From the NCBI GenBank assembly GCA_003155655.1, contig PMDS01000061.1, forward strand, positions 1 through 32,753: 32,753 bases of DNA. The letters are read 5' to 3'. Each line of letters opens with the position of its first letter. Within the stretch, counting starts at the first letter, position 1. Source of the stretch: Melioribacter sp. (GTDB taxonomy: Bacteria > Bacteroidota > Ignavibacteria > Ignavibacteriales > Melioribacteraceae). The translations under genes were made by a program, and so were the position numbers. Below are positions 7,360 through 29,187 of this stretch, piece after piece. Under the pieces are notes generated by a model. That model was not told the DNA's origin. It made no database searches and worked only from the letters and a program-made list of their open reading frames with translations.

Positions 7360-7374
7360 GATATACTCCTTTTA

Positions 7375-8148: not shown

Positions 8149-8150
8149 TT

Positions 8151-8906: not shown

Positions 8907-8922
8907 TCAATATAAAATAGTA

Positions 8923-10613: not shown

Positions 10614-10636
10614 TAAAACCTTTGAAGAATTTTGAA

Positions 10637-12647: not shown

Positions 12648-12661
12648 AATAATTTCCTTTT

Positions 12662-13411: not shown

Positions 13412-13426
13412 GTTGTCTCAATAGAC

Positions 13427-14293: not shown

Positions 14294-15246
14294 TTTCTAT
14301 CCATACTCCAGACAAGTAATCTTGCAAGTGCATTAATAATTATTGTGATAACAAATAGTACCAACGCTAATTCGATTAACGCGCTTAAATACATTTCAGA
14401 CGTTGCTTCAGTAAACTCATTCGCAATTACACTAGCCATTGTATATGAAGGATCAAACAAAGAGGGTGAAATAAGAGCCCGGTTTCCAATTACCATAGTT
14501 ACAGCCATTGTTTCACCAATAGCGCGTCCAAGACCCAGCATAGTTGCACCAAGTATTCCCGGTCTCGCATCTCTCAACACAATCATAGTTGACTGCCATT
14601 TCGAAGCACCAAGGGCTAAAGCTGCTTCACGCTGAGAACGCGGTACAGATTTCAGCACATCTCGAGAAATTGAAGAAATAATTGGAAGAACCATAACAGA
14701 TAAGATTATTACGGCAGCCAATAAACCAAATCCATACGGAGCACCCTTGAAAAATGGAAGGTACCCTAATTTATCCGATAAATATGGTTCAACTACCTTG
14801 CGTATCCAAGGGACTAAAACAAAAATTCCCCATAAGCCATAAATAACGCTTGGAATACCGGCTAATAGTTCAACCAAAAATGATAATGGTTTTTCCAGCC
14901 ACGGAGGAGCTACTTCTGATAAATATATTGCAACTCCTATACTGAGAGGTAAAGCAATAATTAATGCCAATGCAGCAGATACTACAGTTCCATAAATAAT
15001 TGGTAAGGCGCCATAAATTTCCCGAACTGGATCCCATGTTGAATTAACTAAAAAGCTCCAGCCAAATTTCTCAATTGAGAGCTTTGAACCTTGATACATC
15101 TCGTAGCCAAGAAGAATTACAAGCAGAAAGACCGACACTGCAAAAAGCAATGTCAGTCTTTCGAAAATAAAATCGCCAACGTTACTGGAAGATAATATTT
15201 TTTTAAACAGACTCTTTTTTTTGGAACTTGTTTCAACCTTTCTCAC
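14278..15246 (-). CDS. pstC: Phosphate ABC transporter permease PstC1
   Basis: A 322-residue permease with a cytoplasmic N-terminal tail of about 30 residues, six membrane helices and the PstC motifs ELLAGIPSVIYGLWGI, SQREAALALGASKWQSTM and LGLGRAIGETMAVTMVIGN. The insertion around WIRKVVEPYLSDKLGYLPFFKG between helices is typical of full-size PstC. It lies 16 bases after pstS1 and overlaps pstA1. It carries phosphate delivered by PstS1. Confidence 0.95.
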   Translation of the reverse strand: MRKVETSSKKKSLFKKILSSSNVGDFIFERLTLLFAVSVFLLVILLGYEMYQGSKLSIEKFGWSFLVNSTWDPVREIYGALPIIYGTVVSAALALIIALPLSIGVAIYLSEVAPPWLEKPLSFLVELLAGIPSVIYGLWGIFVLVPWIRKVVEPYLSDKLGYLPFFKGAPYGFGLLAAVIILSVMVLPIISSISRDVLKSVPRSQREAALALGASKWQSTMIVLRDARPGILGATMLGLGRAIGETMAVTMVIGNRALISPSLFDPSYTMASVIANEFTEATSEMYLSALIELALVLFVITIIINALARLLVWSMDRKWKTT

Positions 15247-15262
15247 AATAAACCCGGATTAC

Positions 15263-16309
15263 CTATTTAATTTTCTTTCCATTTGCGGTTATAGTAGAAA
15301 TATTCTTTTCGCACATTTTAACAACTGCCTTAGGCAGAGGCGCATAGTATAATTCAGTAGCAAAAGTTTGACCTTTTCCCATAGCCCATTTTAAGAAATT
15401 AACTAAAGCATTAGCTTTAGCTTCATCTTTCATATTCTGATAGACTAACAGCCAGGTAAACCCTGAGATTGGATAAGAATCTTTTCCAGCTGCGTCGGTA
15501 ATTGAAACACGTAAATCAGCAGGCATATCTTTAGAAGAACCCTCTGCTGCTGCACTAACAGAACTAAATGATGCTTCAACAAATTTTCCAGCTTTGTTTT
15601 TCATTGTTGCATAAGCAATATTATTTTTTACAGCATAAGCTAATTCAACATAACCTACTGAACCTTCAGTCTGTTTAACTAAACCAGCAACACCATCATT
15701 ACCTTTTCCACCAAGCCCTACAGGCCAGTTAACTGATGTACCTTTACCAACTTTAGTTTCCCAATCTTTGCTAACTTTGGTTAGATAATCGGTAAAGATA
15801 AAACTTGTGCCGCTTCCATCTGATCTATGAGCAACAACAATTGCTTTGTCGGGAAGACTAACTTTCGGGTTCAATTTTGCAATTGCGCCGTCATTCCATT
15901 TTGTAATATTTCCAAGAAATATATTAGCAAGTGTTGTACCATCAAGATTCAATTTTCCGTTTAATCCCGGAATGTTATAACTAACTACAACAGCACCCAT
16001 AACAGTTGGTATGTGTAAAACATCTGCACCTTGTTTTGATTTAGCTTCAGCTAGTTGCTGATCAGACATTGGACCATCTGTTGCACCAAAATCGACCGTA
16101 CCTTCTGTAATTTGTTTAATACCACCGCCGCTGCCAATTGCCTGATAATTAAACTGCACTCCTGTAGCATTTTTATATTCATCAAACCATTTTGAATATA
16201 TAACAGCCGGGAATGTTGCGCCTGCGCCATTCAGCTGCAGCTGTGCATGTGCAACAGACGAAATCGAAAGCGCTAGAAATACTATTGATATTATTGTCCT
16301 AAACTTCAT
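15263..16309 (-). CDS. pstS: Periplasmic phosphate-binding protein PstS1
   Basis: A 348-residue secreted phosphate-binding protein with a Sec signal peptide cleaved near SSVAHA-QLQL. The ligand-binding motifs are those of classic PstS: LNGAGATFPAVIYSKWF, YQAIGSGGGIKQI, DFGATDGPMS and HRSDGSGTSFIFTDYL. It has no lipobox, unlike PstS2. It lies 23 bases after the porin gene, in the operon driven by the four-repeat Pho box at 17445-17483. Confidence 0.96.
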   Translation of the reverse strand: MKFRTIISIVFLALSISSVAHAQLQLNGAGATFPAVIYSKWFDEYKNATGVQFNYQAIGSGGGIKQITEGTVDFGATDGPMSDQQLAEAKSKQGADVLHIPTVMGAVVVSYNIPGLNGKLNLDGTTLANIFLGNITKWNDGAIAKLNPKVSLPDKAIVVAHRSDGSGTSFIFTDYLTKVSKDWETKVGKGTSVNWPVGLGGKGNDGVAGLVKQTEGSVGYVELAYAVKNNIAYATMKNKAGKFVEASFSSVSAAAEGSSKDMPADLRVSITDAAGKDSYPISGFTWLLVYQNMKDEAKANALVNFLKWAMGKGQTFATELYYAPLPKAVVKMCEKNISTITANGKKIK

Positions 16310-16332
16310 TTTTATCTCCTTTTATTTTTACG

Positions 16333-17391
16333 TTAAAATGTAAATGCAAATGTTACTCTAGCTTGAAGGTTACTTGAAGCAGATGAACCGTTAGTATTTG
16401 TTACTTTTTCAGGAGTAAATATTTCAACGTTAGGGATAATGCTTACATTCTTTGCAGCTTTAAAATCCAATCCAGCTAACAATAAAGTTGTTTTATCATT
16501 ATCAACGTCTGTATTAGGATCATAACTGTCATATCTTGCAACTAATCTAAAATTATCAGCTAGACTAACCCATGCCCAGAAAGAAAGTCCCATTGTTTTT
16601 TGATCCATCAAAGCGCCTGTAGTTTTATAGCCATTTTGGATGCTTCTTGTAAAACCTTCAAATCCAATGGCAAAATCTGTTTTCATCTGATAGTTTAAGA
16701 ACAAAGCTGCTACATAAGCGTTATTTGGTTTTGATGTTTTATCAAAAGCATCGGTAACATCAGCTTTTGCACCGTAATCATAATATATTGTTGCCTGGAA
16801 GCCGTCTACTGGTTTTAACTGTACTAATGCATAATATCTTTTGTATTTATCTGTTTCCGGACCATTGCTGGCATTATTACCAATTTTTACCCAGTAATTA
16901 ATTGTACCAGCATCAGTAATTTTTCCTTTAAGGTCAACACCTAAATCTCTTGAAGATACTATTCCATTTAAGTCCATAATTGTTTTTTCCAAAGAGCGGT
17001 AGCCCCAGGCATTTTCAGAAATATCAAATGCAGGTGTAGGTGAAAGACCGAAAATCATGTCAGAACCGCTAAAGATTCCTTTCCACTTTAAATAAGCATC
17101 TTTAATCATAACGCCAAGTTTTCCACCGGAAGTATTTGAATTAGCGCTCTGGTCTGTTTCAGTACGAAAACGAGCATCAAAACTTTCTGCAACAGCAATA
17201 TCTGCAGTAAAGTAAATTCTTCTAAACTGGAATCCATTTAAATTCTCCTGGTTTCCGTCAACATTGTTTACGTTATAGTAGTAATCACCAAACATCAAAC
17301 CACTAAATTTGAATTTATCAGTTGCACTTTGTGCAAAACTGATTGAAGCAAATAAAATAAAGAATATTGAGATGCTGTAAAGCTTTTTCAT
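16333..17391 (-). CDS. Outer-membrane porin, phosphate-selective OprO/OprP-like
   Basis: A 352-residue beta-barrel protein with a signal peptide ending near ISFAQ, short amphipathic strands throughout (for example FSGLMFGDYYYNV and FRRIYFTADIAV), and a C-terminal strand ending in Phe (RVTFAFTF), as required by the BAM machinery. The call as an OprO/OprP-like porin rests on the fold and on its place as first gene of a pst operon, 23 bases before pstS1. Anion or polyphosphate selectivity is inference; I cannot identify the binding lysines. It would bring phosphate across the outer membrane for PstS1. Confidence 0.8.
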   Translation of the reverse strand: MKKLYSISIFFILFASISFAQSATDKFKFSGLMFGDYYYNVNNVDGNQENLNGFQFRRIYFTADIAVAESFDARFRTETDQSANSNTSGGKLGVMIKDAYLKWKGIFSGSDMIFGLSPTPAFDISENAWGYRSLEKTIMDLNGIVSSRDLGVDLKGKITDAGTINYWVKIGNNASNGPETDKYKRYYALVQLKPVDGFQATIYYDYGAKADVTDAFDKTSKPNNAYVAALFLNYQMKTDFAIGFEGFTRSIQNGYKTTGALMDQKTMGLSFWAWVSLADNFRLVARYDSYDPNTDVDNDKTTLLLAGLDFKAAKNVSIIPNVEIFTPEKVTNTNGSSASSNLQARVTFAFTF

Positions 17392-17427: not shown

Positions 17428-17483
17428 CAAACATAGTTTCTGTGTGTTAACTCAATGTTAAGCTTGTGTTAAGGAATTGTTAA
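17428..17483 (-). promoter_or_regulatory. Four-repeat Pho box and -7 element for porin-pst1 operon
   Basis: On the minus strand, four perfect TTAACA hexamers occur at exactly 11-bp intervals (plus-strand positions 17478-17483, 17467-17472, 17456-17461, 17445-17450). Nine bases after the last is TATGTTTG (17428-17435), a perfect TAnnTTTG -7 element. This is the layout of PhoB/PhoP-activated promoters, where direct repeats at one helical turn replace the upstream promoter element. It is the best example of five such sites in the window. Confidence 0.9.
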
Positions 17484-17687
17484 GATTTTTTTCAAATAAA
17501 CACTTCGTCTGATTTTTGAAGTTTGGGCTAAAATGAAAAGTTAAGCCAATAAATAAATTATGGTGTAAGTAAAGACTTAATGATTATTTAATATTGTTGA
17601 CAAATGCATAGAAATTATATTGCAATGATAAAATATATTTTCCTTGGTACTGATTTTATAAAAATTTTAAAGATTAACAAACCTAAT

Positions 17688-19037
17688 ATGGAAATAGAAC
17701 AACAAATAATTCCTGAAGAAGAAATAAATTCAAAAAAAGCATGGGTAGTAACTGCGGATATGGGTTACGGACATCAGCGCGCTGTTCACCCAATTAGAGA
17801 AATTGCTGAGGAAGGCATAATTACTGTTGGTTCCGAACATGCAGTAACTAAAAATGAAGAAAAATTGTGGAAGCGTGTTCTTAACGGATATGAATTTTTT
17901 TCACGTGCAAAAGGAATTCCGGTTATAGGTAATCCGCTATTTAATTTGCTCGACGCGTTTATGCATATACCTTCCCCTTACCCAATTAGAGATCTTTCAA
18001 ATACAACATTGCAGGTTTCAATCCTTGAATCAAGCATAAACAAAGGTTTGTGCGATGGGATGCTTGAGATTGTAAAATCAAAGGATTTACCTCTCATAAC
18101 TTCTTTCTACGCAACAGCAGTGGCAGCAGACATGAAAGGCCTGCAATCAGTTTATTGTATAATATGTGATGCAGATATAAACCGTGTTTGGGTGGCTAAA
18201 GAACCCTGGGAAAGCAGAATCGAATATTTTGCACCTTGCGGCAAAGCAGCACAGAGATTAAGAGCTTATGGAGTTCAAGACGAAAAAATATTTGTAACAG
18301 GCTTTCCTTTGCCAATTGAATTACTTGGAGATAAGGATCTGACAATATTAAAAGCCGATCTGGCCCAAAGGCTTGATTATCTTGACCCGGAAAATGTTTT
18401 TTGGCGAAGGCAGAAAAGAAATGTTAAACACTTTTTAGGCAAAGAGAATTGTATTCCAAGGAAAGATAGAAAATTAACTTTGACGTATGCGGTTGGCGGA
18501 GCCGGCGCTCAAAAAGAAATTGGGGAAAGAATTGCTCTTAGTCTTAAAAACAAAATACTCAACAATGAAATCAAGCTTATTCTTGTTGCAGGTATAAGAA
18601 AAGAAGTAAAAGTTTTTTTTGATTCGGTAAAAGAGAAAATCACAGATGATAATGCAAAGATTGAAATTGTTTATGCAGAATCACTCTACAATTACTTTGA
18701 TAAATTCAACGCAATACTTAAAAACACAGATATTCTCTGGACAAAGCCAAGTGAACTTTCATTCTACTGCGGATTAGGTATACCAATAATAATTGCCCCT
18801 CCCATCGGTTCACAAGAGAAATTTAATGCAAAATGGCTGTATGAAATTCAAGCCGGTATAAGACAGGAAAATCCCGATTATACAGAACAATGGCTTTTTG
18901 AATCACTTGCAAATGGAAGAATAGCAGAAGCTGCCTGGGCAGGTTTTTTAAAAGCAAGAAAATTAGGTACGTATAAAATCCTTGAAATATTGGAAACAGG
19001 TAATATGATTCACAAAAAATCACCAGTTATGAGATAA
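17688..19037 (+). CDS. GT-B glycosyltransferase, MurG/MGDG-synthase-like
   Basis: A protein of about 449 residues with a GT-B fold of the GT28 type. The N-terminal donor/acceptor loop is WVVTADMGYGHQRAVHP, a variant of the GGGH loop. The C-terminal half has TYAVGGAGAQKEIGERI and a nucleotide-sugar-binding stretch KPSELSFYCGLGIPIIIAPPIGSQEKFNA, which follows the G-x3-E...N pattern of MurG and MGDG synthase. The frame is open from an ATG at 17604, but I chose the ATG at 17688 because the extra 28 residues match nothing. It is followed after two bases by a second glycosyltransferase. A role in sugar-headed lipid synthesis is inferred from the pair and the neighbouring phosphate genes; donor and acceptor are unknown. 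I see no convincing Pho box upstream. Confidence 0.7.
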   Translation: MEIEQQIIPEEEINSKKAWVVTADMGYGHQRAVHPIREIAEEGIITVGSEHAVTKNEEKLWKRVLNGYEFFSRAKGIPVIGNPLFNLLDAFMHIPSPYPIRDLSNTTLQVSILESSINKGLCDGMLEIVKSKDLPLITSFYATAVAADMKGLQSVYCIICDADINRVWVAKEPWESRIEYFAPCGKAAQRLRAYGVQDEKIFVTGFPLPIELLGDKDLTILKADLAQRLDYLDPENVFWRRQKRNVKHFLGKENCIPRKDRKLTLTYAVGGAGAQKEIGERIALSLKNKILNNEIKLILVAGIRKEVKVFFDSVKEKITDDNAKIEIVYAESLYNYFDKFNAILKNTDILWTKPSELSFYCGLGIPIIIAPPIGSQEKFNAKWLYEIQAGIRQENPDYTEQWLFESLANGRIAEAAWAGFLKARKLGTYKILEILETGNMIHKKSPVMR

Positions 19038-19039
19038 CC

Positions 19040-20185
19040 TTGAATTCAAATCCCCAAAACAAAAATAAATTGCTTTTTGCTTATCTTAAAACGGGCGGAG
19101 GTCACCTTGCGCCAGCAAAATCATTGGCAAAGTATTTGGAAAGACACTACAAAAATGAAGCTGAGATTGTTCTTATTGATGGATTTGAAAATAGCAAAAA
19201 ATATACAAGATATATTATCGAAGACGGGTATAGAATTCTGCAAGGCAGAATAAAATGGTTATATGAGTTAATTTATGCTTTTCACAAAATAAAAATTATT
19301 TCTGAGATAAGTTCATATTTAGTATCTATTCATACTACGAAGTATTTATCTAAAATACTATTGCAGGAGAGGCCCGATAAAATAGTTGTGTTCCATTTTT
19401 TTCTAATAAAACCCTTTTATAAAATAATTAAAAAAATGAAGCTGAATATACCTATAATCACAATTGTGACTGACCCATTTATAGCGCCGCCATTATGGTT
19501 TTTAAGAAAGAATCAAAATTTTATAGTTTTCAGCGAAGAATTAAAATACTATTGCATTAAAAAAGGAATTGATTCAAAAAACATAAAAGTATTCAATTTT
19601 GTTATAGATGAGAAATATTCCAATGCAGCCACTAAAGATGAAATACTTGCTTATAAAAAAGATCTGGGCTTCAGTAAAGAGAATGTTTTGCTAATTCTTG
19701 GCGGTGGTGATGGAATTCCTAATGGAATTCAAATTCTTAAAAATATTTTAAAATCAAAAAGTGATATTGAAATTGCCTTTGTGTGCGGTAAAAACAAAGA
19801 GTTATACGAACATGCACAAATTTTTAAATCCGGCGGCAAATACGATAATCTTAAAATATACAGTTTTGTTGATTTTATTTATGAATTAATTAGTATATCC
19901 GACGTAGTAATCTCTAAATGCGGAGCTTCTACACTCATTGAATTATTAATCTCCGGGAAAGTACAAATAGTTAATAGTTTTCTCTGGGAGCAAGAGAAAG
20001 GAAATGTTGACTACTTGGTAGAAAATAATCTTGGCATATACGAAAAAAGAATTAGTAAACTTCCCTCTCTTATAGATCAGATGTTTACAAACAAAAATAT
20101 CTTAGAGCAATTTCAAAAGAACATTACAAGTATTAATTCTAAAAATGGACTTAAAGAAGTGGCATCCTATTTACTCCAGTATTAA
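19040..20185 (+). CDS. Glycosyltransferase of the diacylglycerol glucosyltransferase/MGDG synthase type
   Basis: A 381-residue GT28-family enzyme. The glycine-rich loop is LLFAYLKTGGGHLAPAKSLAKYL at the N-terminus. IITIVTDPF (about residue 145) matches the MGDG-synthase N-terminal domain. The C-terminal donor-binding region has LLILGGGDG and VVISKCGASTLIELL, as in UgtP and MGDG synthase. Such enzymes add glucose or galactose to diacylglycerol at the inner face of the membrane. The start is TTG, two bases after the upstream stop, so the two genes form an operon and may act in sequence on one glycolipid. In many bacteria such lipids replace phospholipids under phosphate limitation; that role here is inference. 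The sugar donor cannot be told. Confidence 0.8.
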   Translation: MNSNPQNKNKLLFAYLKTGGGHLAPAKSLAKYLERHYKNEAEIVLIDGFENSKKYTRYIIEDGYRILQGRIKWLYELIYAFHKIKIISEISSYLVSIHTTKYLSKILLQERPDKIVVFHFFLIKPFYKIIKKMKLNIPIITIVTDPFIAPPLWFLRKNQNFIVFSEELKYYCIKKGIDSKNIKVFNFVIDEKYSNAATKDEILAYKKDLGFSKENVLLILGGGDGIPNGIQILKNILKSKSDIEIAFVCGKNKELYEHAQIFKSGGKYDNLKIYSFVDFIYELISISDVVISKCGASTLIELLISGKVQIVNSFLWEQEKGNVDYLVENNLGIYEKRISKLPSLIDQMFTNKNILEQFQKNITSINSKNGLKEVASYLLQY

Positions 20186-20222
20186 CCAATTGCACACAAA
20201 ACAATAATATGCGGGCTCCTGT

Positions 20223-21782
20223 TTATCTAGCAATTTCTGAAATAAATACTTCATTCATTAAATTAATCAGCTGAATCTTTTCAAACGGTTTGGAAAGATA
20301 ATGCGTAAAGCCGCACTCTAATAAATTATTCTTGTCATTCTTAAATGCATAACCGGTCATTGCAATAATTGGAATATCTTTATAATAATTCACTTTCCTG
20401 ATTTCATTAAGTGCATCCACGCCGTTCATCCCGCTACCAAGGTTAATGTCCATAAGGATTGCATCATAAAAAGCTTCTTTGATTTTTTGCAGTGCTGTAA
20501 GCGCATCCTGGGCAATTTCAACCCTACAAACATTTTTTAGAAATGTTGATGTTAGTTTGCTGTTTAATTCATTATCCTCCACCATTAAAATCAAGGGAAG
20601 ATTTTCATTTGTATATTTAGTTTTAGATGGGACAGAAACAATAGACTCTTTATTCAGATATTCACTCAACGCCGGGAATTTTAATGAAAAAACACTGCCA
20701 ATGTGTTTTTCACTTTCAACAGTTATTTCTCCACCCATAATTGTTGTCATTTTTTTTACTAGAGTAAGCCCCAGCCCAATACCCTCATGAGACCTGCTGA
20801 AGCCATTACTTTCCTGAATAAATTCATCAAATATTTTTTCTTTACTTTGGCTTGAAATACCAATACCAGTATCAATTATCTTGATTAAAGCGTAACAATT
20901 GTCATCTTTAATCATTTTTTCAACAATAACTTTAATTCCACCAGTGTTTGTAAATTTCAATGCATTATCAATTAGATTATTAAGAATTTCGGTGAAAAGT
21001 GTTCTGTCAATATGCAATCTTAAATCAAAGCAATTTATTTCCAAATGAAAATATAATCCTTTAGACTCAGCGTCAGTTCTAAATTTATCAAATATAAGTT
21101 GAACGACTTCTGAAAGATCAACTTTTGTATAATTCACATCTATTTTATCAGCTTCCAGAGTTGATAATTCAATAATTGAATGCAACGTATTTAATAATCT
21201 CTTACCCGCTTTTGAAATTTCATTAGCCATTTTTTTATGTTCGCCAAATTCCAGATCTTCCTTCATCAATTCGGCTAAACCTAAAATTCCATGCAGGGGC
21301 GTTCTTACTTCATGGTTCATATTAGAAAGCAAAGTCGATTTAAGCCTGTTGGATTCTTCTGCCTGCATTTTCAATTTTAGAAGTTCCTCTTCCTTCTTTT
21401 TCCATTCGCTTATATCCTGCCCCACAACCAGAATATAACTACAACCGGCAGATTCATCAAAAATAGGAATCAACGTACATTTAATAAAACGATTCTGGCC
21501 ATCACTATTAATTTGAAATTCAAATTCCATCTTTTGCTTCTTGGCTAGGACCATTTGAAACGCATATAAAAATTCTTTTGTTCGTTCGCCAGGTAATATT
21601 TCATCAAATCTTTTACCTAAGCACATTTTCTTTGAAATTCTCATGAGTTCTACAAAAGCCATGTTCACTGAACAGTAAATGAATTGATTATTTTCATTAA
21701 CTTTTGTGAGAAACATAATGTCTGTTGTATTATTATAAATAATAGATAGCATTTCTTTACTGTCTTTAAAATAATGGTCCAT
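20223..21782 (-). CDS. Hybrid sensor histidine kinase with C-terminal receiver
   Basis: A 519-residue soluble hybrid kinase. In order: a PAS domain (about residues 10-135, with ILVVGQDISEWKKKEEEL at its end), a short coiled coil, a HisKA domain with the H-box SNMNHEVRTPLHGILGL (about 155), a HATPase domain with N-box and IDTGIGIS, GIGLGLTL boxes (to about 370), and a CheY-like receiver (about 395-515) with the phospho-acceptor Asp in AILMDINLG and the Lys in YLSKPF. No membrane segment is present, so it senses a cytoplasmic signal. It has no DNA-binding domain and would need another regulator. It runs convergent to the glycosyltransferases with 37 bases between. It does not look like PhoR. 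Confidence 0.93.
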   Translation of the reverse strand: MDHYFKDSKEMLSIIYNNTTDIMFLTKVNENNQFIYCSVNMAFVELMRISKKMCLGKRFDEILPGERTKEFLYAFQMVLAKKQKMEFEFQINSDGQNRFIKCTLIPIFDESAGCSYILVVGQDISEWKKKEEELLKLKMQAEESNRLKSTLLSNMNHEVRTPLHGILGLAELMKEDLEFGEHKKMANEISKAGKRLLNTLHSIIELSTLEADKIDVNYTKVDLSEVVQLIFDKFRTDAESKGLYFHLEINCFDLRLHIDRTLFTEILNNLIDNALKFTNTGGIKVIVEKMIKDDNCYALIKIIDTGIGISSQSKEKIFDEFIQESNGFSRSHEGIGLGLTLVKKMTTIMGGEITVESEKHIGSVFSLKFPALSEYLNKESIVSVPSKTKYTNENLPLILMVEDNELNSKLTSTFLKNVCRVEIAQDALTALQKIKEAFYDAILMDINLGSGMNGVDALNEIRKVNYYKDIPIIAMTGYAFKNDKNNLLECGFTHYLSKPFEKIQLINLMNEVFISEIAR

Positions 21783-21865
21783 GAAGGTATATCCTTATTT
21801 TGAGAATATTAGTATTTTTTTATGTTACGGTCTTAACTATGCTCACACAATTAATATTATAAGCA

Positions 21866-23050
21866 TCAATTCTTTTCAGATATTTCAAAGTTTCTTGATT
21901 CGTTTAATTCACGTGTTTCTGATATTGGCAGTAGCACCTTAAAAGTACTTCCTTTATTTACAGCCGTATCAAGAATAATTTTACCATCGTGATAATCAAT
22001 TATTTTTTTAACTATGTACAAACCCAATCCGGTAGAAGATTCATATGAAGTAGGTTTTGCGCTTAATCTTTGAAATTTCAAATATAGTTTTGAAAGATCA
22101 TCCTCGGTAAATCCCTGTCCCTCATCTTGAATTGATATTTCAGCATATTTATCCTCATACTTAGCTTCAATAACTATTTTCTTTCCATATTCAGAATATT
22201 TAATTGCATTAGAAATCAGATTCTCAAATACTTCCTTTATTTTCTGTCTATCAGCCTTAATTATTATTTGCGAATGACTTGGATTAAACTGTACCACCTG
22301 CTTTTTAGATTCGTAATATTTCTTAAATGAAAAAACAATCGAATCGATAAGGCTAATTAATTCAAAATCTGTACAGTTAAGCTCATATTCAGTGGCGTCG
22401 TTAAGTGCAGAGGCTAGTAGATCATTCATCAAATCATTCATCTGTTTAGCGGCAATTTCAATATAATTTAGGTAGGTAGTGGATTCATCGTTAATAAAAT
22501 TAGCCTCTTTTAGTTCTTGAGAAAATCCAATAATTGAATTAATCGGACTCCGCAGATCATGAGCAAGAATTCCTAACAGCTCCTTTTTAAACTCGTTAGC
22601 TTCATTTAATGAAATGGATGTAAGTAAATGTACATGAGTCTGCGCAAGAAGCAGTTCATAAAAATCAAGGAGTTTTTTCTCGTCATTTTCAAATTCAACA
22701 ACGATCGGATCATGTCTTTTTGAATCTTCCCTTTGCAAAGCCAGACTTGCAGCTTTAAGAACTGGAGTATGATGAGGCAGAGAAAGATAACATTCACTTT
22801 CTTTAATAAAATCTGAGACAGATCTTTTTAAAAACAGATCGAACATAAATTGCTTACTCATCATTTCAAAAAATCTTTTCCTAGAAAGCATACCCAAAAA
22901 GCGTCCATTTTCTGTTATAAGAATACCTGATATTTGACTATCTTTTTCAAAGATATTATAAACGTTTGTCAAATATTCCAATGACTCAATTTTAACAGTC
23001 ATTAAATCAAGATCTCCAATAACGGCATCAATATTTATTGGACGTTTCAT
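21866..23050 (-). CDS. Histidine kinase with CBS-like N-terminal sensor
   Basis: A 394-residue kinase. The first 140 residues look like a pair of CBS motifs (ISGILITENGRFLGMLSRKRFFEMM, then HHTPVLKAASLALQ...PIVVEFENDEK), a module that usually binds adenine nucleotides. A linker leads to HisKA with the H-box LGILAHDLRSPINSIIG (about 165), then HATPase with N-box LISNAIKYSEY, IQDEGQGF and TGLGLYIVKKI. No membrane segments and no receiver domain are present. It lies 83 bases upstream of the hybrid kinase gene on the same strand, so the two may form one signalling unit. The signal is unknown; nucleotide or energy sensing is only suggested by the CBS call. Confidence 0.85.
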   Translation of the reverse strand: MKRPINIDAVIGDLDLMTVKIESLEYLTNVYNIFEKDSQISGILITENGRFLGMLSRKRFFEMMSKQFMFDLFLKRSVSDFIKESECYLSLPHHTPVLKAASLALQREDSKRHDPIVVEFENDEKKLLDFYELLLAQTHVHLLTSISLNEANEFKKELLGILAHDLRSPINSIIGFSQELKEANFINDESTTYLNYIEIAAKQMNDLMNDLLASALNDATEYELNCTDFELISLIDSIVFSFKKYYESKKQVVQFNPSHSQIIIKADRQKIKEVFENLISNAIKYSEYGKKIVIEAKYEDKYAEISIQDEGQGFTEDDLSKLYLKFQRLSAKPTSYESSTGLGLYIVKKIIDYHDGKIILDTAVNKGSTFKVLLPISETRELNESRNFEISEKN

Positions 23051-23243
23051 TATTAAATCACCTTAACTAAACAAACAGATTTATTTAGCACTAATTTTTT
23101 ACAACTGTAACACTTAATTTATTTTTCCAAACATTAATCATTTTTGTTAACATATATGGATGTACAACTCCTTTTTCATAAGAAATCTGACTCTTAATAA
23201 AATAATTATCGGTTTTAATTTTATTTAATAAGAACCAAGCTTC
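23051..23243. other. 193-base intergenic gap
   Basis: This gap lies between the CBS-kinase and phosphoesterase genes, both on the minus strand. A single TGTTAA occurs at 23145-23150, but it has no partner at 11-bp spacing, so I do not call a Pho box. I see no clear terminator or promoter. Confidence 0.4.
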
Positions 23244-24164
23244 TTAAATAGCAACTGATTGAATTAACTTTTCCTCAATTGGATTATCTGGTTTATTCAA
23301 CAGAACTGAGCATAATTCGGTAGTAATTAATTTGGGAAATACATCAATTAAAAATAGACTTGCTAAGTGATCCGAATTATTATCAAGTGAAGCTCCGGCA
23401 TTAATAAACCTGATATCCTCTCTTATATACTCTTTCATTTCATGACTGTGCCCATGAAGCACAAGTTTTACATTATTGTTTTTGAATATTTTCATAAGCT
23501 TCTTTTTGCCGCGTAGTTTCATTGTATAATTTTCAATTTTACTCCATAATGTATCCTCGGAACTATGGGAAGTAATATTCTTTGGATAGAAATGATGATG
23601 CGCCAAAATAATTTTAACTTTATCTTTGAACTCATTCCGGTTAAGAACTGTATCAAGGTATTGTCTTTGAATTTTTGAAACGTGACCATTAGATGCGAAA
23701 GGATTTTTAAACCTTGAATATTCTGCAATTGAATTTATGCCAACTATCAAAATGTTTTTAAATTCTTTTAAGAATGGGAAAAATAATTCTTCATGGGGAC
23801 GTGTTGTATTTTCAAAAAGTTCTTTGAAATATTTTACAAAACCAGCAACCTTTGCATGGTAATTAATATTCATACATTTGGATGGGAAATTTAAAACGTC
23901 CTGTGCAGTCTGCGGTCCCCCGAAAATATCGTGATTACCAATAATTATAGTAGCCTTGTCACTTCTAAGAAGATCGTATTGCTTTAATATTTCTTTAAAT
24001 ACATTAAAATCCTTTTCATCTGAGTTATCAGAAATATCTCCGGTAATAACTAAATGCTCCGCGCCATTATCTAATGCATATTCAATAAGCTTTCTTGTTT
24101 TATGAATATTTTCCGGTTTGAGCCTAGAGTTAAGGTGTAAATCCGAGATGTGAGCAATTCTCAT
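23244..24164 (-). CDS. Calcineurin-type metallophosphoesterase
   Basis: A 306-residue phosphoesterase with the full dinuclear-metal site: D-x-H (Asp8, His10 in ISDLHLN), GDISD (Asp43), GNHD (77-80), AHHHF (His189-190) and GHSH (238-241). Family members hydrolyse phosphomono- or diesters, including cyclic nucleotides (CpdA) and, in the PlcP group, phospholipids. No signal peptide is seen, so it is cytoplasmic. A Pho box with good spacing lies just upstream, which suggests release of phosphate from an internal source under starvation, possibly from phospholipid head groups. That substrate is inference. The gene is divergent from the NeuB-like gene. Confidence 0.88.
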   Translation of the reverse strand: MRIAHISDLHLNSRLKPENIHKTRKLIEYALDNGAEHLVITGDISDNSDEKDFNVFKEILKQYDLLRSDKATIIIGNHDIFGGPQTAQDVLNFPSKCMNINYHAKVAGFVKYFKELFENTTRPHEELFFPFLKEFKNILIVGINSIAEYSRFKNPFASNGHVSKIQRQYLDTVLNRNEFKDKVKIILAHHHFYPKNITSHSSEDTLWSKIENYTMKLRGKKKLMKIFKNNNVKLVLHGHSHEMKEYIREDIRFINAGASLDNNSDHLASLFLIDVFPKLITTELCSVLLNKPDNPIEEKLIQSVAI

Positions 24165-24188
24165 TAATATGATCCATAATATTTTGTG

Positions 24189-24244
24189 TAAAAATAGCTT
24201 ACTGATGTTAAGAGAATGTGAATGAATTATTAATAAATCATTAA
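24189..24244 (-). promoter_or_regulatory. Pho box and -7 element for the phosphoesterase gene
   Basis: On the minus strand, four hexamers at exact 11-bp spacing read TTAATG (24239-24244), TTAATA (24228), TTCACA (24217) and TTAACA (24206-24211). Nine bases further is TATTTTTA (24189-24196), matching five of six defined positions of TAnnTTTG. The hexamers are degenerate, but the spacing is the same as in the porin promoter. Confidence 0.65.
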
Positions 24245-24261
24245 GAAATAGACTGAGAGAA

Positions 24262-24317
24262 TTAACAATTTCTTAACCATGGCTTAATATTGAGGTAACA
24301 TCTAAAACTAATATTTG
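24262..24317 (+). promoter_or_regulatory. Pho box and -7 element for the NeuB-like gene
   Basis: On the plus strand TTAACA (24262), TTAACC (24273), TTAATA (24284) and GTAACA (24295-24300) are spaced exactly 11 bp apart. Nine bases later comes AATATTTG (24310-24317), five of six defined positions of TAnnTTTG. A strong AAAGGAG ribosome-binding site (24334-24340) precedes the ATG at 24347. It is back to back with the phosphoesterase Pho box. Confidence 0.8.
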
Positions 24318-24346
24318 CGATGAAAAAAATATGAAAGGAGTTATAG

Positions 24347-25243
24347 ATGTCAGGTAAAGTGAAAGTTGGCAGCCGGTATATTGGGGATGATCAGCCGGTT
24401 TACATTATAGCTGAAATCGGAATTAATCATAATGGCTCAATGGCGCTTGCAAAGAAATTAATTGATGGAGCAGTATTTGCAGGATGTGATGCAGTCAAAT
24501 TCCAAAAAAGGACGCCTGAACTTTGTGTGCCAAGAGATCAGTGGGATCTTGAACGTGACACTCCCTGGGGAAGAATTAGTTATATAAAATACAGACATAA
24601 AATAGAATTTGGGTTTTCAGAATTTGAAGAAATTGATTTGTATTGTAAATATAAAGGAATTGACTGGTTTGTCTCTGCGTGGGATGAAGAATCAGTTGAT
24701 TTCATTGACCAGTTTAACCCGTTAGTATATAAAATTGCATCTGCTTCATTAACAGATTTGGGTTTGCTGGACAAATTAAGAAGTACTGGTAAACCTTTAA
24801 TACTCTCAACGGGAATGTCTACAATTGAAGAAGTTGAGGAAACAGTTGAATTTTTAGGGAAGGAGAATTTGTTGCTTGCTCAGTCAACTTCTTCGTATCC
24901 ATGTAAATTGGAAGAACTTAATTTAAATGTGATCCATTCTTATAAATCAAAATACCCAGAAGTACCCGTTGGTTACAGCGGACATGAAACCGGATTGGCA
25001 CCAACGCTGGCTGCAGTTGCAATGGGCGCAACTTTTGTAGAAAGACATATAACTCTTGATAGGGCTATGTGGGGAACCGATCAGGCAGCATCAGTAGAAG
25101 TAATGGGAATGTACAGACTTGTTAAAGATATACGCGATATTGAAAAATCATTGGGTGACGGCAAAAAAAAACTATATGAGAGTGAACAAATCAGCAGAAA
25201 TAAACTAAGAAGAGTAATAGAAAAAAATAAGATTGCAGTTTAG
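24347..25243 (+). CDS. NeuB-family sugar-acid synthase lacking the SAF domain
   Basis: NeuB enzymes condense phosphoenolpyruvate with an N-acetylated or modified hexose to make sialic-acid-like nonulosonates, releasing phosphate. The 298-residue TIM barrel shows AEIGINHNGSMALAKKLID, AGCDAVKFQKRTPE, LSTGMSTIEEV, QSTSSYPC, GYSGHETG and ERHITLDRAMWGTDQAASVE. It stops there: the C-terminal antifreeze-like SAF domain (about 60 residues), which shapes the sugar site in full NeuB proteins, is missing. A cytidylyltransferase or other sialic-acid gene is not in view. It is driven by its own Pho box and followed by a long hairpin terminator, so it is monocistronic. Product unknown; a phosphate-free acidic sugar for surface or lipid use is speculation. 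Confidence 0.85.
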   Translation: MSGKVKVGSRYIGDDQPVYIIAEIGINHNGSMALAKKLIDGAVFAGCDAVKFQKRTPELCVPRDQWDLERDTPWGRISYIKYRHKIEFGFSEFEEIDLYCKYKGIDWFVSAWDEESVDFIDQFNPLVYKIASASLTDLGLLDKLRSTGKPLILSTGMSTIEEVEETVEFLGKENLLLAQSTSSYPCKLEELNLNVIHSYKSKYPEVPVGYSGHETGLAPTLAAVAMGATFVERHITLDRAMWGTDQAASVEVMGMYRLVKDIRDIEKSLGDGKKKLYESEQISRNKLRRVIEKNKIAV

Positions 25244-25276
25244 ATATACAGTTTACGGGTTAGATGCATAACCTGT

Positions 25277-25327
25277 AAAACTCCTCAACCCCGCTGTGTG
25301 ATATGCGCAGCGAGGTTGGAAAGTTTT
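25277..25327 (+). terminator. Long imperfect hairpin ending in TTTT
   Basis: Arms 25277-25298 and 25306-25327 pair at about 17 of 22 positions, with a GC-rich core (CAACC.CGCTG) and a T-run at the end. It lies 34 bases after the NeuB-like stop codon and is a good candidate for its intrinsic terminator. Confidence 0.55.
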
Positions 25328-25348
25328 AACAAAATATTGTCAGCTTGA

Positions 25349-25364
25349 TGCTCATAAATGAGCA
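25349..25364. repeat. Perfect 7-bp inverted repeat
   Basis: TGCTCAT-AA-ATGAGCA is a perfect dyad with a two-base centre. It could be an operator or a small hairpin. It is the middle of three dyads in the 188-base gap 25244-25431. Confidence 0.4.
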
Positions 25365-25381
25365 CTGATACAACCCCCTAT

Positions 25382-25413
25382 TTCCCCTCCACGATGCAGG
25401 AGGGGAAGTTTTT
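25382..25413 (+). terminator. Perfect 9-bp hairpin with GTTTTT tail
   Basis: TTCCCCTCC (25382-25390), an 8-base loop, then GGAGGGGAA (25399-25407) and GTTTTT. It has the form of a rho-independent terminator but lies only 18 bases before the start of the next gene, on the same strand. It may act as an attenuator or be part of a dispersed repeat. Confidence 0.5.
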
Positions 25414-25431
25414 AAACTCAAGGCACTTCAT

Positions 25432-26100
25432 ATGAAAATAATTCTTAATTCAATAATAATTCTTTTTATTATTGTATTAATTACAAACGCAGATGAAAAA
25501 ATAAAAGAAGTTCCGAATAATATATCCAATTATTTCCCGGTTAATAATAATACTACACTAGTTTATAAATCATCGTTTGGCAGGAGTTTAACAAGATATT
25601 TTTATGATAAAGAATTTATTATTAGTTCCAACGAGGCTGATAAATTCAAATACATACAAAAGCTACTTATAAAGGATGACGGCGTTTATGTATTTGAGGT
25701 ATACCAATACCTTCAAATATTTATTTTTATTAAAAAGGAAGGTAGATATACATACAGTAAGCCTTTATTAAGGCTGCCACTTCCATTGACCCCTGGCAAG
25801 GAATGGCAATGTAAATGCGATGAATACTCAAATAGTGACACAAATAAGGTGATAGTAACAGGGAAAGTTATTGGAAGTGAAATATTGAAAACTACTCTTG
25901 GTAATTATGAAACAATAAAAGTGGAGACAAAAATTGAAAGCGGAACAGGGAAAAACACAGTGACTGAATGGTATTCGGCCGGAATTGGATTAGTAAAAGC
26001 AAATATTATAATCGAAGGCGGTGGTCTAATGGGTTTTGCAAGAGATATTCTGGGATACGGTGAAATTAATTTCGATTTAGAGGAAATTAAAAAAGATTAA
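25432..26100 (+). CDS. Secreted protein, unknown function
   Basis: A 222-residue protein with an N-terminal signal peptide (IILNSIIILFIIVLITNA) and a beta-rich body. It has the pattern NYFPVNNNTTLVYKS near the N-terminus, a central KVIVTGKVIGSEIL...GNYETIKVET block and WYSAGIGLVKANI near the end. I know this arrangement from secreted DUF3108-like or lipocalin-like proteins of related bacteria, but no function is attached to it. It runs convergent to the OlsF-like gene; the two stop codons overlap by three bases within TTAA. A perfect hairpin sits immediately upstream. I see no Pho box of its own. Confidence 0.65.
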   Translation: MKIILNSIIILFIIVLITNADEKIKEVPNNISNYFPVNNNTTLVYKSSFGRSLTRYFYDKEFIISSNEADKFKYIQKLLIKDDGVYVFEVYQYLQIFIFIKKEGRYTYSKPLLRLPLPLTPGKEWQCKCDEYSNSDTNKVIVTGKVIGSEILKTTLGNYETIKVETKIESGTGKNTVTEWYSAGIGLVKANIIIEGGGLMGFARDILGYGEINFDLEEIKKD

Positions 26101-27851
26101 ACGGAAACATTTAACAAATTATTAAAATACGAACCAATGTATTTTTGTTTTTTCTCCTCTTTGATTTTATCAACATCAATCAATAATAATCCATCAACGC
26201 AGTTCTCAAAGTCAGGGTCGATTCCAAAATCAAGAAATTTTATTCCGCCGTCATTACATAAATCAGAATAATGTTTATAAAGAACAGGGACAGATAGACC
26301 AAGCTGTTTAAGCATATTCTTTAAGATTTTGAAGTCATCCTTGGCAGATTTGGATATGAATATTTGATAAAATTCTTTCTGAGTTTTTTCAGGAATTAAA
26401 TACCTGTTTCTTGAAACAGACAAAATTTGGCCAGATGAATACCATTTTCTAAAAAAATATATGATTAATTCCTTAGCATAAACAGGATAATTGTTACTAA
26501 GGCTAACACCACCAAATAAATATTTAACAGATGGGTTGTTTGCCAAATAAGCACCGATGCCAAACCATAAATAATTTAGGGCATTAGTATTCCAATATTT
26601 TTTTTGCACAAAACTTCTTCCCAGTTCAATAGAATCTGATAAATATTCTGAAACAAAATCTTTGTTGTGATCAAATAAAGATGAAGTATAAAATCCTTCC
26701 TTTCCGTATTTCTGATATATTTGGTTACCTAACCCGATCCTGTAAGAGCCTACAATTTCAAGCTCATTTTCATCCCAAATTATTAAATGAGAGTAATAGC
26801 CATCATACTTATCTAAATCCATCTTTTTCCCGGTTCCCTCACCAACTTTACGGAAAGTTATCTCCCGTAGTCTGGCTATTTCATTTACAACATGTGGAGA
26901 TTCGTTCTTTGTTGTTAAAAATATCTTCATCCCATCCTTAATTTTCCCTATCATACTATTATTATTCAGTTCACGTTTTAACAGTCTTCTATCAATAGGA
27001 TGAATTACATTTTTTTCAGTTTTATATATTCCGTTTTTATTTTTCCCCAAAAGGTAAACGTGCTTTTTAATCAACTTCATTTGATATTCATCTTTTATAT
27101 AGGAAGAAGTAAAGACTTTTGAGGGAATTAAATCGCCGATTTTAATATGAATCGTTTTATTTTTTTTATTAAATAGTTCATGTACAAGTAAAAACATTGA
27201 AAGTCTTTTGCTGAAAATTGACACTAAATAAAACAAAAGAGAATTTTTTGCATCAATATGAATTGGAGTGACCGGGACATTATATTTTTTTGCAAAATAG
27301 ATTGCTCCTTTATGCCATTTTGAATCAACAATATGAAACCATTCAAGTCTTGATACTGTAGCAGCTGGAAATATAATAACAGCATAATCATTTTCTAATG
27401 CTTCACCAATCCTGGAAATATTTTCCTTCTGTGCTTTTTTCCCGATTATATCAAACGGCAGTAATAGGGGACGAATATTTTCAATGTTAAAAAGTATATC
27501 ATTTGCAACAATCTTTAGATCGTTTCTTATCTCTAATATAGCTTTAAGAAGCGAAAGACTATCCAGGCTGCCAATAGGATGGTTGGCAACACATATCAAT
27601 TTACCTTCAGATGGGATTTTTTGTATATCACGGTCAGAAATCAAATAAGAAAAGTTCAACTCGTCAAATAATTCATTAATAAACTGTTTAGGATCAAGAT
27701 GGCTATTTTTTTCTAGAAATGAGTTTATTGAATTAATGTATAATAATTTACGAAGAAACTTTAGAAATGCTTTTTTTAGTATTCCATATTTGTTTAAAAA
27801 GGTGTTATTGTAATATTTGGATAATATATTCTCAAGGTCTATTGGATTCAC
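26097..27851 (-). CDS. olsF: Bifunctional acyltransferase, OlsF-like (ornithine/amino-acyl lipid synthesis)
   Basis: A 584-residue fusion. The N-terminal half (about 60-280) is a PlsC-type O-acyltransferase with NHPIGSLD (His91, Asp97) and IIFPAATVSRLEW. The C-terminal half (about 310-520) is a GNAT/OlsB-like N-acyltransferase with EIARLREITFRKVGEGTG, SIELGRSFVQKKYW and LWFGIGAYLANNP. This order and length match OlsF (known from Serratia and Flavobacterium), which N-acylates ornithine and then O-acylates lyso-ornithine lipid, giving a membrane lipid without phosphorus. The amino acid used here could differ, for example glycine. It is the third gene of a unit starting at 28488, behind a four-repeat Pho box, with a 44-base gap to the gene before it. 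Induction under phosphate limitation fits its known role. Confidence 0.82.
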   Translation of the reverse strand: MNPIDLENILSKYYNNTFLNKYGILKKAFLKFLRKLLYINSINSFLEKNSHLDPKQFINELFDELNFSYLISDRDIQKIPSEGKLICVANHPIGSLDSLSLLKAILEIRNDLKIVANDILFNIENIRPLLLPFDIIGKKAQKENISRIGEALENDYAVIIFPAATVSRLEWFHIVDSKWHKGAIYFAKKYNVPVTPIHIDAKNSLLFYLVSIFSKRLSMFLLVHELFNKKNKTIHIKIGDLIPSKVFTSSYIKDEYQMKLIKKHVYLLGKNKNGIYKTEKNVIHPIDRRLLKRELNNNSMIGKIKDGMKIFLTTKNESPHVVNEIARLREITFRKVGEGTGKKMDLDKYDGYYSHLIIWDENELEIVGSYRIGLGNQIYQKYGKEGFYTSSLFDHNKDFVSEYLSDSIELGRSFVQKKYWNTNALNYLWFGIGAYLANNPSVKYLFGGVSLSNNYPVYAKELIIYFFRKWYSSGQILSVSRNRYLIPEKTQKEFYQIFISKSAKDDFKILKNMLKQLGLSVPVLYKHYSDLCNDGGIKFLDFGIDPDFENCVDGLLLIDVDKIKEEKKQKYIGSYFNNLLNVSV

Positions 27852-27895
27852 AATGATTAAGGTTATTTTTTTGGGTTTGGTTAAGAAATGCAGAA

Positions 27896-28243
27896 TTAAA
27901 CAAAATTCGTTTCTTCATCTTTTTTTATTGATTTATCTTTGTATAGGGTCTCATAATTATCCTCAAGTTCCCAGTTAAAAGAGGTGATTTTTTTTGCGTC
28001 ATTAGTAATTATACTAAGCCAATTTTTATTAACAAGAATTTCAAAAATAATCCTGTTTTCTTTTGCGGAGAGGTCTTCCAAAATTGTGCGTTCTTCTAAA
28101 GATAGGTTTTTATGAAACTCTTCTACATTTTTAACTTTACTATAAATATTTCTTTTATACTTACTAATTCTGTAAAGTTCACTAACAAGCTCCTCAAATA
28201 AGGGAGAATTATAAAGAGCAATTTCATAACTAAGACCGGGCAT
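27896..28243 (-). CDS. Small soluble helical protein, unknown function
   Basis: A 115-residue, charged, mostly helical protein without signal peptide or membrane segment. It begins MPGLSYEIALYNSPLFEEL and ends in a lysine/glutamate-rich tail. I do not recognise a family. It lies 29 bases after the small membrane gene and 44 before the OlsF-like gene, so it is probably in the same Pho-box unit. Confidence 0.5.
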   Translation of the reverse strand: MPGLSYEIALYNSPLFEELVSELYRISKYKRNIYSKVKNVEEFHKNLSLEERTILEDLSAKENRIIFEILVNKNWLSIITNDAKKITSFNWELEDNYETLYKDKSIKKDEETNFV

Positions 28244-28272
28244 ATTTCATTTTTCCATTAATAAACGTCGTA

Positions 28273-28488
28273 TTATATTAAATATGAATAGCTTCCCTCG
28301 GGATCAATTACATTATTATTCGATTCCTGATCCGCTACCGGTAATAAAGATAAAATCACTAAAGCAAAAAATGAAAAAACAAATCCAAGAACGAACCATT
28401 CTTGAGTTGCGCGGTTTTTTTCTTTTGCTTTAACTGAACAGAATAACCCAAAAATTAGACCTATTATTGAAAACCAAAGACCGAACAT
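28273..28488 (-). CDS. Small two-helix membrane protein
   Basis: A 71-residue protein with two membrane helices, LWFSIIGLIFGLFCSV (about 4-19) and WFVLGFVFSFFALVILSLLP (about 31-50), joined by a charged loop KAKEKNRATQE. The loop plus WFVLGF motif recalls small membrane proteins of the 'KG(R)S..GWFLLGLLFGP' type, of unknown function. An AGAGG ribosome-binding site precedes the ATG. It is the first gene after the four-repeat Pho box at 28527-28565 and probably leads the transcript that includes the OlsF-like gene. Confidence 0.6.
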   Translation of the reverse strand: MFGLWFSIIGLIFGLFCSVKAKEKNRATQEWFVLGFVFSFFALVILSLLPVADQESNNNVIDPEGSYSYLI

Positions 28489-28509
28489 ATTTACCTCTTT
28501 TTGTTGGGT

Positions 28510-28565
28510 TAAAGATCGGCAATCAATATTAACTCATTATTAACTGAATGTTAAGAAAATGTTAA
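28510..28565 (-). promoter_or_regulatory. Four-repeat Pho box for the small-gene/OlsF unit
   Basis: On the minus strand TTAACA (28560-28565), TTAACA (28549), TTAATA (28538) and TTAATA (28527-28532) are spaced exactly 11 bp apart. Nine bases further GATCTTTA (28510-28517) is a weak -7 candidate (four of six defined positions). The first gene downstream starts at 28488. Confidence 0.75.
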
Positions 28566-28603
28566 GATTTTGGGGGCTGCATTGATGAAAATAATTACCG
28601 GAA

Positions 28604-28918
28604 TTAAGATTTTTCTTTCTTCTCTTTTTTGAAGAGAGAAAGAATCAACCAAATTCCTATGACCAGGTCGATTACAATCCATATTGTTTTGGTCAAATGT
28701 ATCTTTAAGATAGGTTGAAATAATACGGCTAAACAAATAAAAATGATAGTTTCGATATTTCTCTTCTTTTTGCGCGCATCATAAGCTAGAAAACTGAACC
28801 CAATTAATGCTAATGTCCTTACAATATCATAGAACCAATAGAGCATATCAAATGGGCAAATGAATAAAATAATTGCTGCAATAAGTTTAACAAGATCTAC
28901 GTTAATTTTCTTTATCAT
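28604..28918 (-). CDS. DUF6804-like four-helix membrane protein
   Basis: A 104-residue protein with about four membrane helices: LVKLIAAIILFICPFDMLYWFY, IVRTLALIGFSFLAY, ETIIFICLAVLFQPILKI and IWIVIDLVIGIWLILSLF. The 'RTLALIGF.LAYDARKK' and 'AVLFQPILKIHL...IWIVIDLV' pattern matches my memory of DUF6804, a family without known function. A good AAGGAAG ribosome-binding site precedes the ATG. It has its own Pho-box-like repeats 88 bases upstream and ends just before the next Pho box. Confidence 0.7.
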   Translation of the reverse strand: MIKKINVDLVKLIAAIILFICPFDMLYWFYDIVRTLALIGFSFLAYDARKKKRNIETIIFICLAVLFQPILKIHLTKTIWIVIDLVIGIWLILSLFKKEKKEKS

Positions 28919-28989
28919 GGAACTTCCTTAGAAATTTCACATTAATAATAATGGGATATTTTAATTTTTCATAGAAAAATATCGTGTTA

Positions 28990-29033
28990 ATAATATAATA
29001 ATGGTTGATAAATTCATGTTAAGAAATTGTTAA
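28990..29033 (-). promoter_or_regulatory. Pho box-like repeats upstream of the DUF6804 gene
   Basis: On the minus strand TTAACA (29028-29033), TTAACA (29017-29022) and TTATCA (29006-29011) are spaced 11 bp apart. TATATTAT (28990-28997) lies eight bases further, a four-of-six match to TAnnTTTG. There are three repeats instead of four, so this is weaker than the other sites. Confidence 0.6.
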
Positions 29034-29187
29034 GTTTTTATGGAATTGTTTTTAGCTTCAAAACACCTATTTTATCTTGGGTTCCTTCAAGTGAATTAAG
29101 TTTCATATTTATCTTATAGGAATTTATAGTAGCAATTAGTTTTGCTTAAAAGATAGTAAACAACCGATTCTTTTTATTACAAAAATA

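Follow-up and report, generated by a model that had tools for sequence, protein, structure and literature searches.

What controls the phosphate-related genes of Melioribacter sp., a member of the Ignavibacteria (Bacteroidota), and do the short repeats that stand in front of several of them belong to one regulatory system? The question is raised by a stretch of DNA of 32,753 bases (hereafter the window), which is the entire contig C16 of the genome referred to as G000 (4.62 Mb in 137 contigs) and encodes two pst operons, at 6673-11431 and 11949-17391, both on the minus strand. A preliminary description, made from the letters of the window alone, had proposed that five promoters share hexamers related to TTAACA at 11-bp spacing and a fixed gap to a -7 promoter element, TAnnTTTG, and that the genes behind them form one phosphate-starvation (Pho) regulon. 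The analysis presented here, which compares sequences within the genome and among its relatives, makes it highly likely that four of these arrays (sites A to D) act as promoters within a single Pho regulon, in which each array would accommodate two dimers of the regulator and the output would be phosphate uptake and lipid replacement.

Each of the four arrays comprises four hexameric units repeated at 11 bp, followed after exactly nine bases by an element resembling TAnnTTTG. Site A (17445..17483, minus strand), located before the porin-pstSCAB-phoU operon, consists of four TTAACA units with 0/24 mismatches, just as first described, and its -7 element, TATGTTTG (17428..17435, minus), matches TAnnTTTG perfectly (0 mismatches). 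The units of the other three sites are of the form TTAAYA. Site B (24206..24244, minus), before the metallophosphoesterase gene, has 2/24 mismatches and the -7 element TATTTTTA (24189..24196, minus; 1 mismatch); site C (24262..24300, plus), before the NeuB-like gene, also has 2/24 mismatches, with the -7 element AATATTTG (24310..24317, plus; 1 mismatch); site D (28527..28565, minus), before the unit of small genes and OlsF, has 0/24 mismatches and the -7 element GATCTTTA (28510..28517, minus; 2 mismatches). At A, B, C and D, respectively, 36, 24, 29 and 21 bases separate the last base of the -7 element from the start codon. Sites B and C stand back to back (24206-24300), and the facing first units of the arrays on the phosphoesterase and NeuB sides are separated by a spacer of 15-17 bases in the window and in five relatives (L028, L029, L038, L042 and L051), of 26 bases in L033, and by a far longer one in L070 (all spacers counted by eye); the 15-17-base spacer suggests helical phasing between the two facing arrays.

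Within its own genome, the four-unit pattern with up to three mismatches has 10 matches, seven of which are registers of the five proposed sites and three of which lie elsewhere, as compared to three matches of the mirror control. Three units followed by nine bases and TAnnTTTG (up to three mismatches) are found five times, against three in the mirror control, and all five matches lie in the window (four sites, one in a shifted register). Three units taken alone (up to two mismatches) are no commoner than the control (41 matches vs 54), which implies that the specificity is conferred by the fourth unit or by the -7 element; a lone hexamer pair, TTAACA-N5-TTAACA with up to three mismatches, is not rare at all (129 matches in the window vs 107 expected). 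For more sensitive scans we used a sequence-only model, R1, trained on 91 sites of other genomes, none of them from the genome of the window. These are the members of a set of 120 sites in relatives (see below) that carry TAnnTTTG with up to two mismatches and are not flagged as coding, with duplicates removed; since they were picked for TAnnTTTG, the -7 columns of R1 are partly a product of selection, and the counts of the -7 element given below use all 120 sites. In the scan of the 4.62-Mb genome, in which 150 of 5860 first-look candidates were scored, R1 found site A at 49.4, D at 42.3, C at 42.3 and B at 29.8 bits, followed by the next match at only 16.4 bits, so that among the scored candidates A to D are the only four strong matches. 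Five of the seven next-best matches examined lie inside open reading frames (ORFs) of at least 80 amino acids, and the remaining two (L273 and L274), outside ORFs, match only the repeat positions, without the -7 part. A plain matrix built from 91 sites of other genomes ranks the sites in the same way (A 60.0, D 50.5, C 49.6, B 37.3), and its maximum on 4 Mb of first-order Markov sequence built from the window is 11.8; the concern that such a matrix might hit just as often in random sequence of matched composition is thus dispelled, as the real scores of 37.3-60.0 were never reached.

The same layout recurs in related genomes. Among 57 genomes, comprising the one analyzed here and 56 others of the same genus, family and order, the four-unit pattern with up to two mismatches was found 154 times in 48 genomes, and the mirror control 5 times in 4 genomes. 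Five of these matches are the window's own and four, in genome G041, were left out; the other 145 merge into 122 sites when overlapping registers are joined, and omission of two more (genome G039) leaves 120 sites in 45 other genomes, on which the following site counts are based. TAnnTTTG with at most one mismatch is present exactly nine bases after the last unit at 69 of 120 sites, with 37 exact matches, as opposed to two sites at offset 8 and one at offset 10 (out-of-register offsets: mean 1.48, highest 5), and it is found at the nine-base gap in 27 of the 30 genera that have sites. If further downstream units are allowed, so that the register is 9 + 11k, the count rises to 78 of 120, with 1 to 8 sites in each of the ten other registers. 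Among these 78 sites, each of the first four units is conserved in 88-96%, as opposed to 15% for a fifth; only the drop at the fifth unit is informative, since the sites were selected for having four. The arrays are also clearly extragenic: only 2 of the 120 midpoints fall inside an ORF of at least 100 amino acids, as compared to 86% of random positions in the same loci, in agreement with the expectation that genuine sites should be rare inside genes. In a sample of 198 genomes spread over the phylum, R1 yielded a match at E <= 1e-4 in 35, which include 14 of the 16 genomes listed for the family of the window, own genome included.

The genes that follow the arrays in relatives include those of phosphate acquisition and membrane lipids. 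Among the 120 sites the next gene encodes a porin O/P-like protein in 24 cases, a TonB-dependent receptor in 22 (20 genera), the OlsF unit in 14 (10 genera), a phosphoesterase in 10, a member of a glycosyltransferase family in 10, members of two small protein families in 6 and 3, PstS in 3, and NeuB, a kinase and DUF47 once each; these classes were assigned by homology, in part from seed proteins encoded at these very sites, and the counts therefore indicate recurrence and not independence. A sample chosen without regard to the box, i.e. the surroundings of 80 relatives of the NeuB-like protein, has the array at 14 of 22 phosphoesterase homologues, 5 of 12 OlsF homologues, both homologues of the small first gene of the OlsF unit, and the lone porin homologue; in this sample no array was found at homologues of the inner genes of the porin-pst operon (1 to 4 of each) or at any of 10 homologues of the PstS-type protein of the second pst operon. 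Among ten proteins encoded behind R1 matches outside the order, Pfam recognizes two binding proteins of the PstS type, one permease, one porin and two TonB receptors, whereas the other four matched no Pfam family; in addition, two further R1 matches within the family precede proteins that resemble phosphoesterases in sequence. The proposal that these genes form one regulon is supported for four transcription units, whose sites are beyond chance, extragenic and found again before the same phosphate genes in relatives, and is not supported for the DUF6804 unit discussed below. In relatives, no target is more widespread than the TonB-dependent receptor (L223, L255, L261 and 19 others), and in the genome of the window no strong R1 site was found beyond the window, before a TonB receptor or elsewhere, among the scored candidates.

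The -7 element itself is not peculiar to the arrays. In 240 upstream regions without an array (from the window and relatives) TAnnTTTG has 66 matches, of which 38 lie between 21 and 60 bases upstream of the start, while mirror and permuted motifs have 21-24 matches each and no peak at this distance; TAnnTTTG is therefore probably a general promoter core of these genomes, enriched also before non-Pho genes, and its initial assignment to the Bacteroidota type is well founded. The sigma-A promoter consensus of Bacteroidota includes also TTTG at -33. This element, sought at a spacing of 17-23 before TAnnTTTG, was seen in none of 37 Pho promoters and in two of 37 non-Pho promoters, and in the 80 loci around NeuB relatives and the window no spacing of TTTG from 12 to 27 exceeded its mirror control. 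Of the 37 Pho promoters, 10 (12 of 78 in a larger set) contain just TTG at spacing 17, in the stretch between the third and the fourth unit, and this may be a remnant of the -33 element in some of them. In Flavobacterium psychrophilum the TAnnTTTG core is placed at -12 to -5 in the available part of the report (PMC9723704), from which the last TTAAYA unit would lie at about -27 to -22; the core is shared with that sigma-A promoter, and the -33 TTTG is what is nearly absent here.

As the rigid layout recurs in many relatives before genes of phosphate uptake and lipid swapping, it very probably represents a switch that activates these genes when phosphate runs out. A phosphorylated response regulator of the PhoB type would bind the array, with the four units holding two dimers in tandem on the same face of the helix; since the distance to TAnnTTTG hardly varies, the last dimer probably takes the place of the -33/-35 element and contacts sigma-A or RNA polymerase directly, so that a promoter without a full -33 element would fire only at low phosphate. 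The products would then import phosphate via the porin and PstSCAB-PhoU and replace phospholipid by ornithine lipid made by OlsF, perhaps with the help of the phosphoesterase. The regulator is most likely encoded on contig C21, at 20794-21471 (L016), next to a PhoR-like kinase: L016 is the best match of the genome to TIGR02154 among six strong full-length matches to the PhoB model, its DNA-binding part matches E. coli PhoB (1gxp, 2.4e-19), and the adjoining kinase is the most PhoR-like of four kinases tested.

Several observations weigh against assigning the arrays to one Pho regulon under PhoB-type control. The second pst operon has no R1-type array in the scan of the window, so that of the two pst systems of the genome one seems to be under phosphate control and the other under some different control. 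The site counts take in related genomes and are not independent; 42 of the 120 sites have no TAnnTTTG in register, and at 25 the next gene matched no recognized class. The array precedes NeuB homologues at 4 of 81 places in the NeuB-surroundings sample, which means that NeuB is not generally a Pho gene and is one only in a close group. A test with two units, a gap and TAnnTTTG in the 57 genomes gave 24, 78 and 32 forward matches at gaps 8, 9 and 10, vs 92, 46 and 35 for the mirror, and with the mirror exceeding the forward count at gap 8 this test is weak and the mirror a poor null; 46 of the 78 gap-9 matches lie on known four-unit sites, and as the remaining 32 are comparable to the counts at the neighboring gaps, shorter arrays do not appear to be a large class. 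L016 and the kinase beside it both fall below the curated cut-offs (for L016: NF053854, 243.7 vs 270; TIGR02154, 228.9 vs 296.2), and L016 is closely followed on the PhoB model by another regulator, L017 (216.8 vs 228.3). The phoBR-like locus of L016 has no R1 match at E <= 1; autoregulation of phoBR through a box is common and not defining. Finally, in Flavobacterium johnsoniae the OprP porin encoded beside phoBR was not induced upon phosphate depletion (log2 -1.3, p 0.25), as given in the part of the study available (PMC8115612).

Is there a fifth promoter? Site E (29006..29044, minus), with 'TATATTAT' at its -7 position, precedes the DUF6804 gene (28604-28918), lies on the same strand, is intergenic and contains two perfect units and one nearly perfect one, which would suit a genuine but weaker member of the regulon. 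Its R1 score, however, is 14.6 bits in the genome (E 0.14) and 9.9 bits in the window with filters off, i.e. inside the background, and its matrix score is 0.1; the gap is 8 bases, a distance at background level in relatives, and a DUF6804 homologue is present in only 2 of the 56 other genomes, without an array there. We regard membership of site E as unlikely and did not accept it: the 11-bp repeats, initially ascribed to five promoters, hold for A to D and come down to three good units at E, and the fixed gap, which holds for A to D and most sites of relatives, does not extend to E, where no credible -7 element is found.

It is rather improbable, too, that the arrays are real and form one regulon but are bound by a different regulator of the OmpR family, either L017 or a partner of the pair of histidine kinases encoded between the Pho promoters of the window (20223-23050), of which one contains a receiver domain. 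The small difference between the PhoB-model scores of L016 and L017, and an array upstream of the homologue of the second of these kinases in a relative (G010), would fit such a regulator; against it, L016 outscores L017 also on NF053854, the best match of L017 is YycF, the kinase adjoining L016 is the most PhoR-like of the four tested, and the set of genes behind the arrays is one expected of a Pho regulon. As for the repeats being an AT-rich coincidence or a tract property of intergenic DNA, the commonness of lone hexamer pairs and of three-unit arrays speaks for it, and the tests run leave it practically no probability, given the scores never reached in Markov sequence of the same composition, the 154 matches against 5 for the mirror in relatives and the fixed gap to TAnnTTTG.

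The Pho regulon to which we assign sites A to D is a familiar kind of system, whose layout in this group was not found described: in the titles and abstract openings retrieved by our searches of the open-licence literature we found neither an array of four units whose distance to TAnnTTTG is fixed nor a Pho regulon of Ignavibacteria, and a term search of the main text of the Melioribacter roseus multi-omics paper found no mention of a Pho regulon or promoters (PMC5492636). PhoB-type regulators, according to the consulted section of a review of the PHO box, bind 11-nt direct repeats head to tail, and in E. coli, as in the general PHO box, such repeats stand before phosphate genes near the promoter core, which is similar to the arrangement described here; the PHO box unit, however, is CTGTCAT and its basic form has two units, as compared to four TTAAYA units and the core TAnnTTTG (PMC4415409). 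The E. coli boxes are placed 10 bp before the -10 element, vs nine bases from the last TTAAYA to TA in our arrays (PMC1906773, in part). The unit of the cyanobacterial SphR boxes is CTTAACCT, with 8 bp and a 3-bp linker giving an 11-bp period and three or more units; it is nearly identical to the unit of the arrays, in which C before TTAA is favored at three of the four units, but it belongs to another phylum and another promoter core, and no fixed distance to the core is stated in the excerpt available (PMC1906773).

Within Bacteroidota, PhoP of Riemerella anatipestifer, described as ArcA-like and with 583 target peaks, has a motif determined by DNA affinity purification sequencing (DAP-seq) whose most conserved part, TTTAACA, contains the same hexamer; an 11-bp array, a four-unit rule or a gap to the -7 element is not stated in the accessible part of that work (PMC9603813). 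PhoB of B. fragilis binds the pstC promoter, with no motif stated in the sections available (PMC3547664). Expression measured in F. johnsoniae under phosphate depletion, as far as the available text goes, shows induction of PlcP, a PF04101 glycosyltransferase and TonB transporters, in agreement with most, but not all, of the genes behind the arrays, and the terms 'Pho box', 'motif' and 'promoter' have 0 occurrences in the text of the study (PMC8115612). Phosphoesterases of the PlcP type preceded by Pho boxes function in lipid replacement in marine bacteria, according to the portion consulted (PMC4796936). In the parts of this literature available, the phosphate genes of Bacteroidota are thus already named and the layout of their control sites is not.

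A promoter grammar in which four TTAAYA units, spaced at 11 bp, are followed after nine bases by TAnnTTTG would allow Pho regulons to be read off the sequence in a group known largely from metagenome-assembled genomes. It makes testable the action of an activator on a sigma-A that can do without a full -35/-33 element, and it points to new candidate phosphate-starvation genes, i.e. the NeuB paralogue, the small genes ahead of OlsF, the TonB receptor and the glycosyltransferase family. We further suggest, as a possibility to which we do not give the upper hand, that the arrays belong to a class of promoters spread over the phylum Bacteroidota and dependent on an activator, in which the -33 element would be replaced by four PhoB units, bound by two dimers, at an obligatory nine-base distance from TAnnTTTG, so that 'TA' would be in helical register with the place of a fifth unit, and which in Ignavibacteria would couple phosphate uptake to lipid replacement, with a duplicated NeuB-type enzyme recruited for a phosphate-free surface or lipid product. 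Weaker R1 matches in three of the phylum-level genomes (L313, L318 and L324) are TTAACA arrays that lack a -7 element at nine bases and precede the gene of a small protein of secreted appearance; they may be something else, perhaps another regulon.

The operon behind site A is encoded on the minus strand and comprises a porin O/P family outer-membrane protein (16333..17391; PF07396, 5e-06, over the cut-off), PstS (15263..16309; TIGR00975, 4.6e-121), two Pst permeases in the PstC and PstA positions (14278..15246 and 13427..14293; PF00528), an ATPase of the ATP-binding cassette (ABC) type in the PstB position (12662..13411; PF00005) and PhoU (11949..12647; TIGR02135, 8e-55). The second pst operon encodes a short PstS-type protein, two permeases, two ATPases and PhoU. 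The window also encodes a pair of glycosyltransferases (17604-20185) of the monogalactosyldiacylglycerol (MGDG)/diglucosyl-diacylglycerol synthase type; a weak two-unit site before the pair (17576-17595, plus) scored 9.5 bits, with an E of 0.041, when the window was scanned and was not accepted.

The phosphoesterase behind site B (23244..24164, minus) is calcineurin-like (PF00149, 1.7e-19; PF12850, 2.3e-13), and its identity as PlcP was backed neither by an NCBIfam model above cut-off nor by a relative of solved structure at 1e-8. The unit behind site D, on the minus strand, starts with a small ORF of 71 amino acids (28273..28488) without an NCBIfam family, whose homologues in relatives also follow an array, and continues with an ORF of 115 amino acids (27896..28243) that matched no family and with OlsF, the bifunctional ornithine lipid synthase (26097..27851; NF052615, 705.8 bits, cut-off 620). 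The NeuB-family protein behind site C (24347..25243, plus; 298 amino acids; PF03102, 1.8e-74) remains under the equivalog cut-offs. A second copy in the genome (G000:C47:21390-22253), 72% identical, has no array, which leaves the window copy as the only one of the two with this promoter, and the best named relatives of the protein are labelled Ignavibacteria, Melioribacter or Melioribacteraceae, Stygiobacter, or plainly Bacteroidetes.

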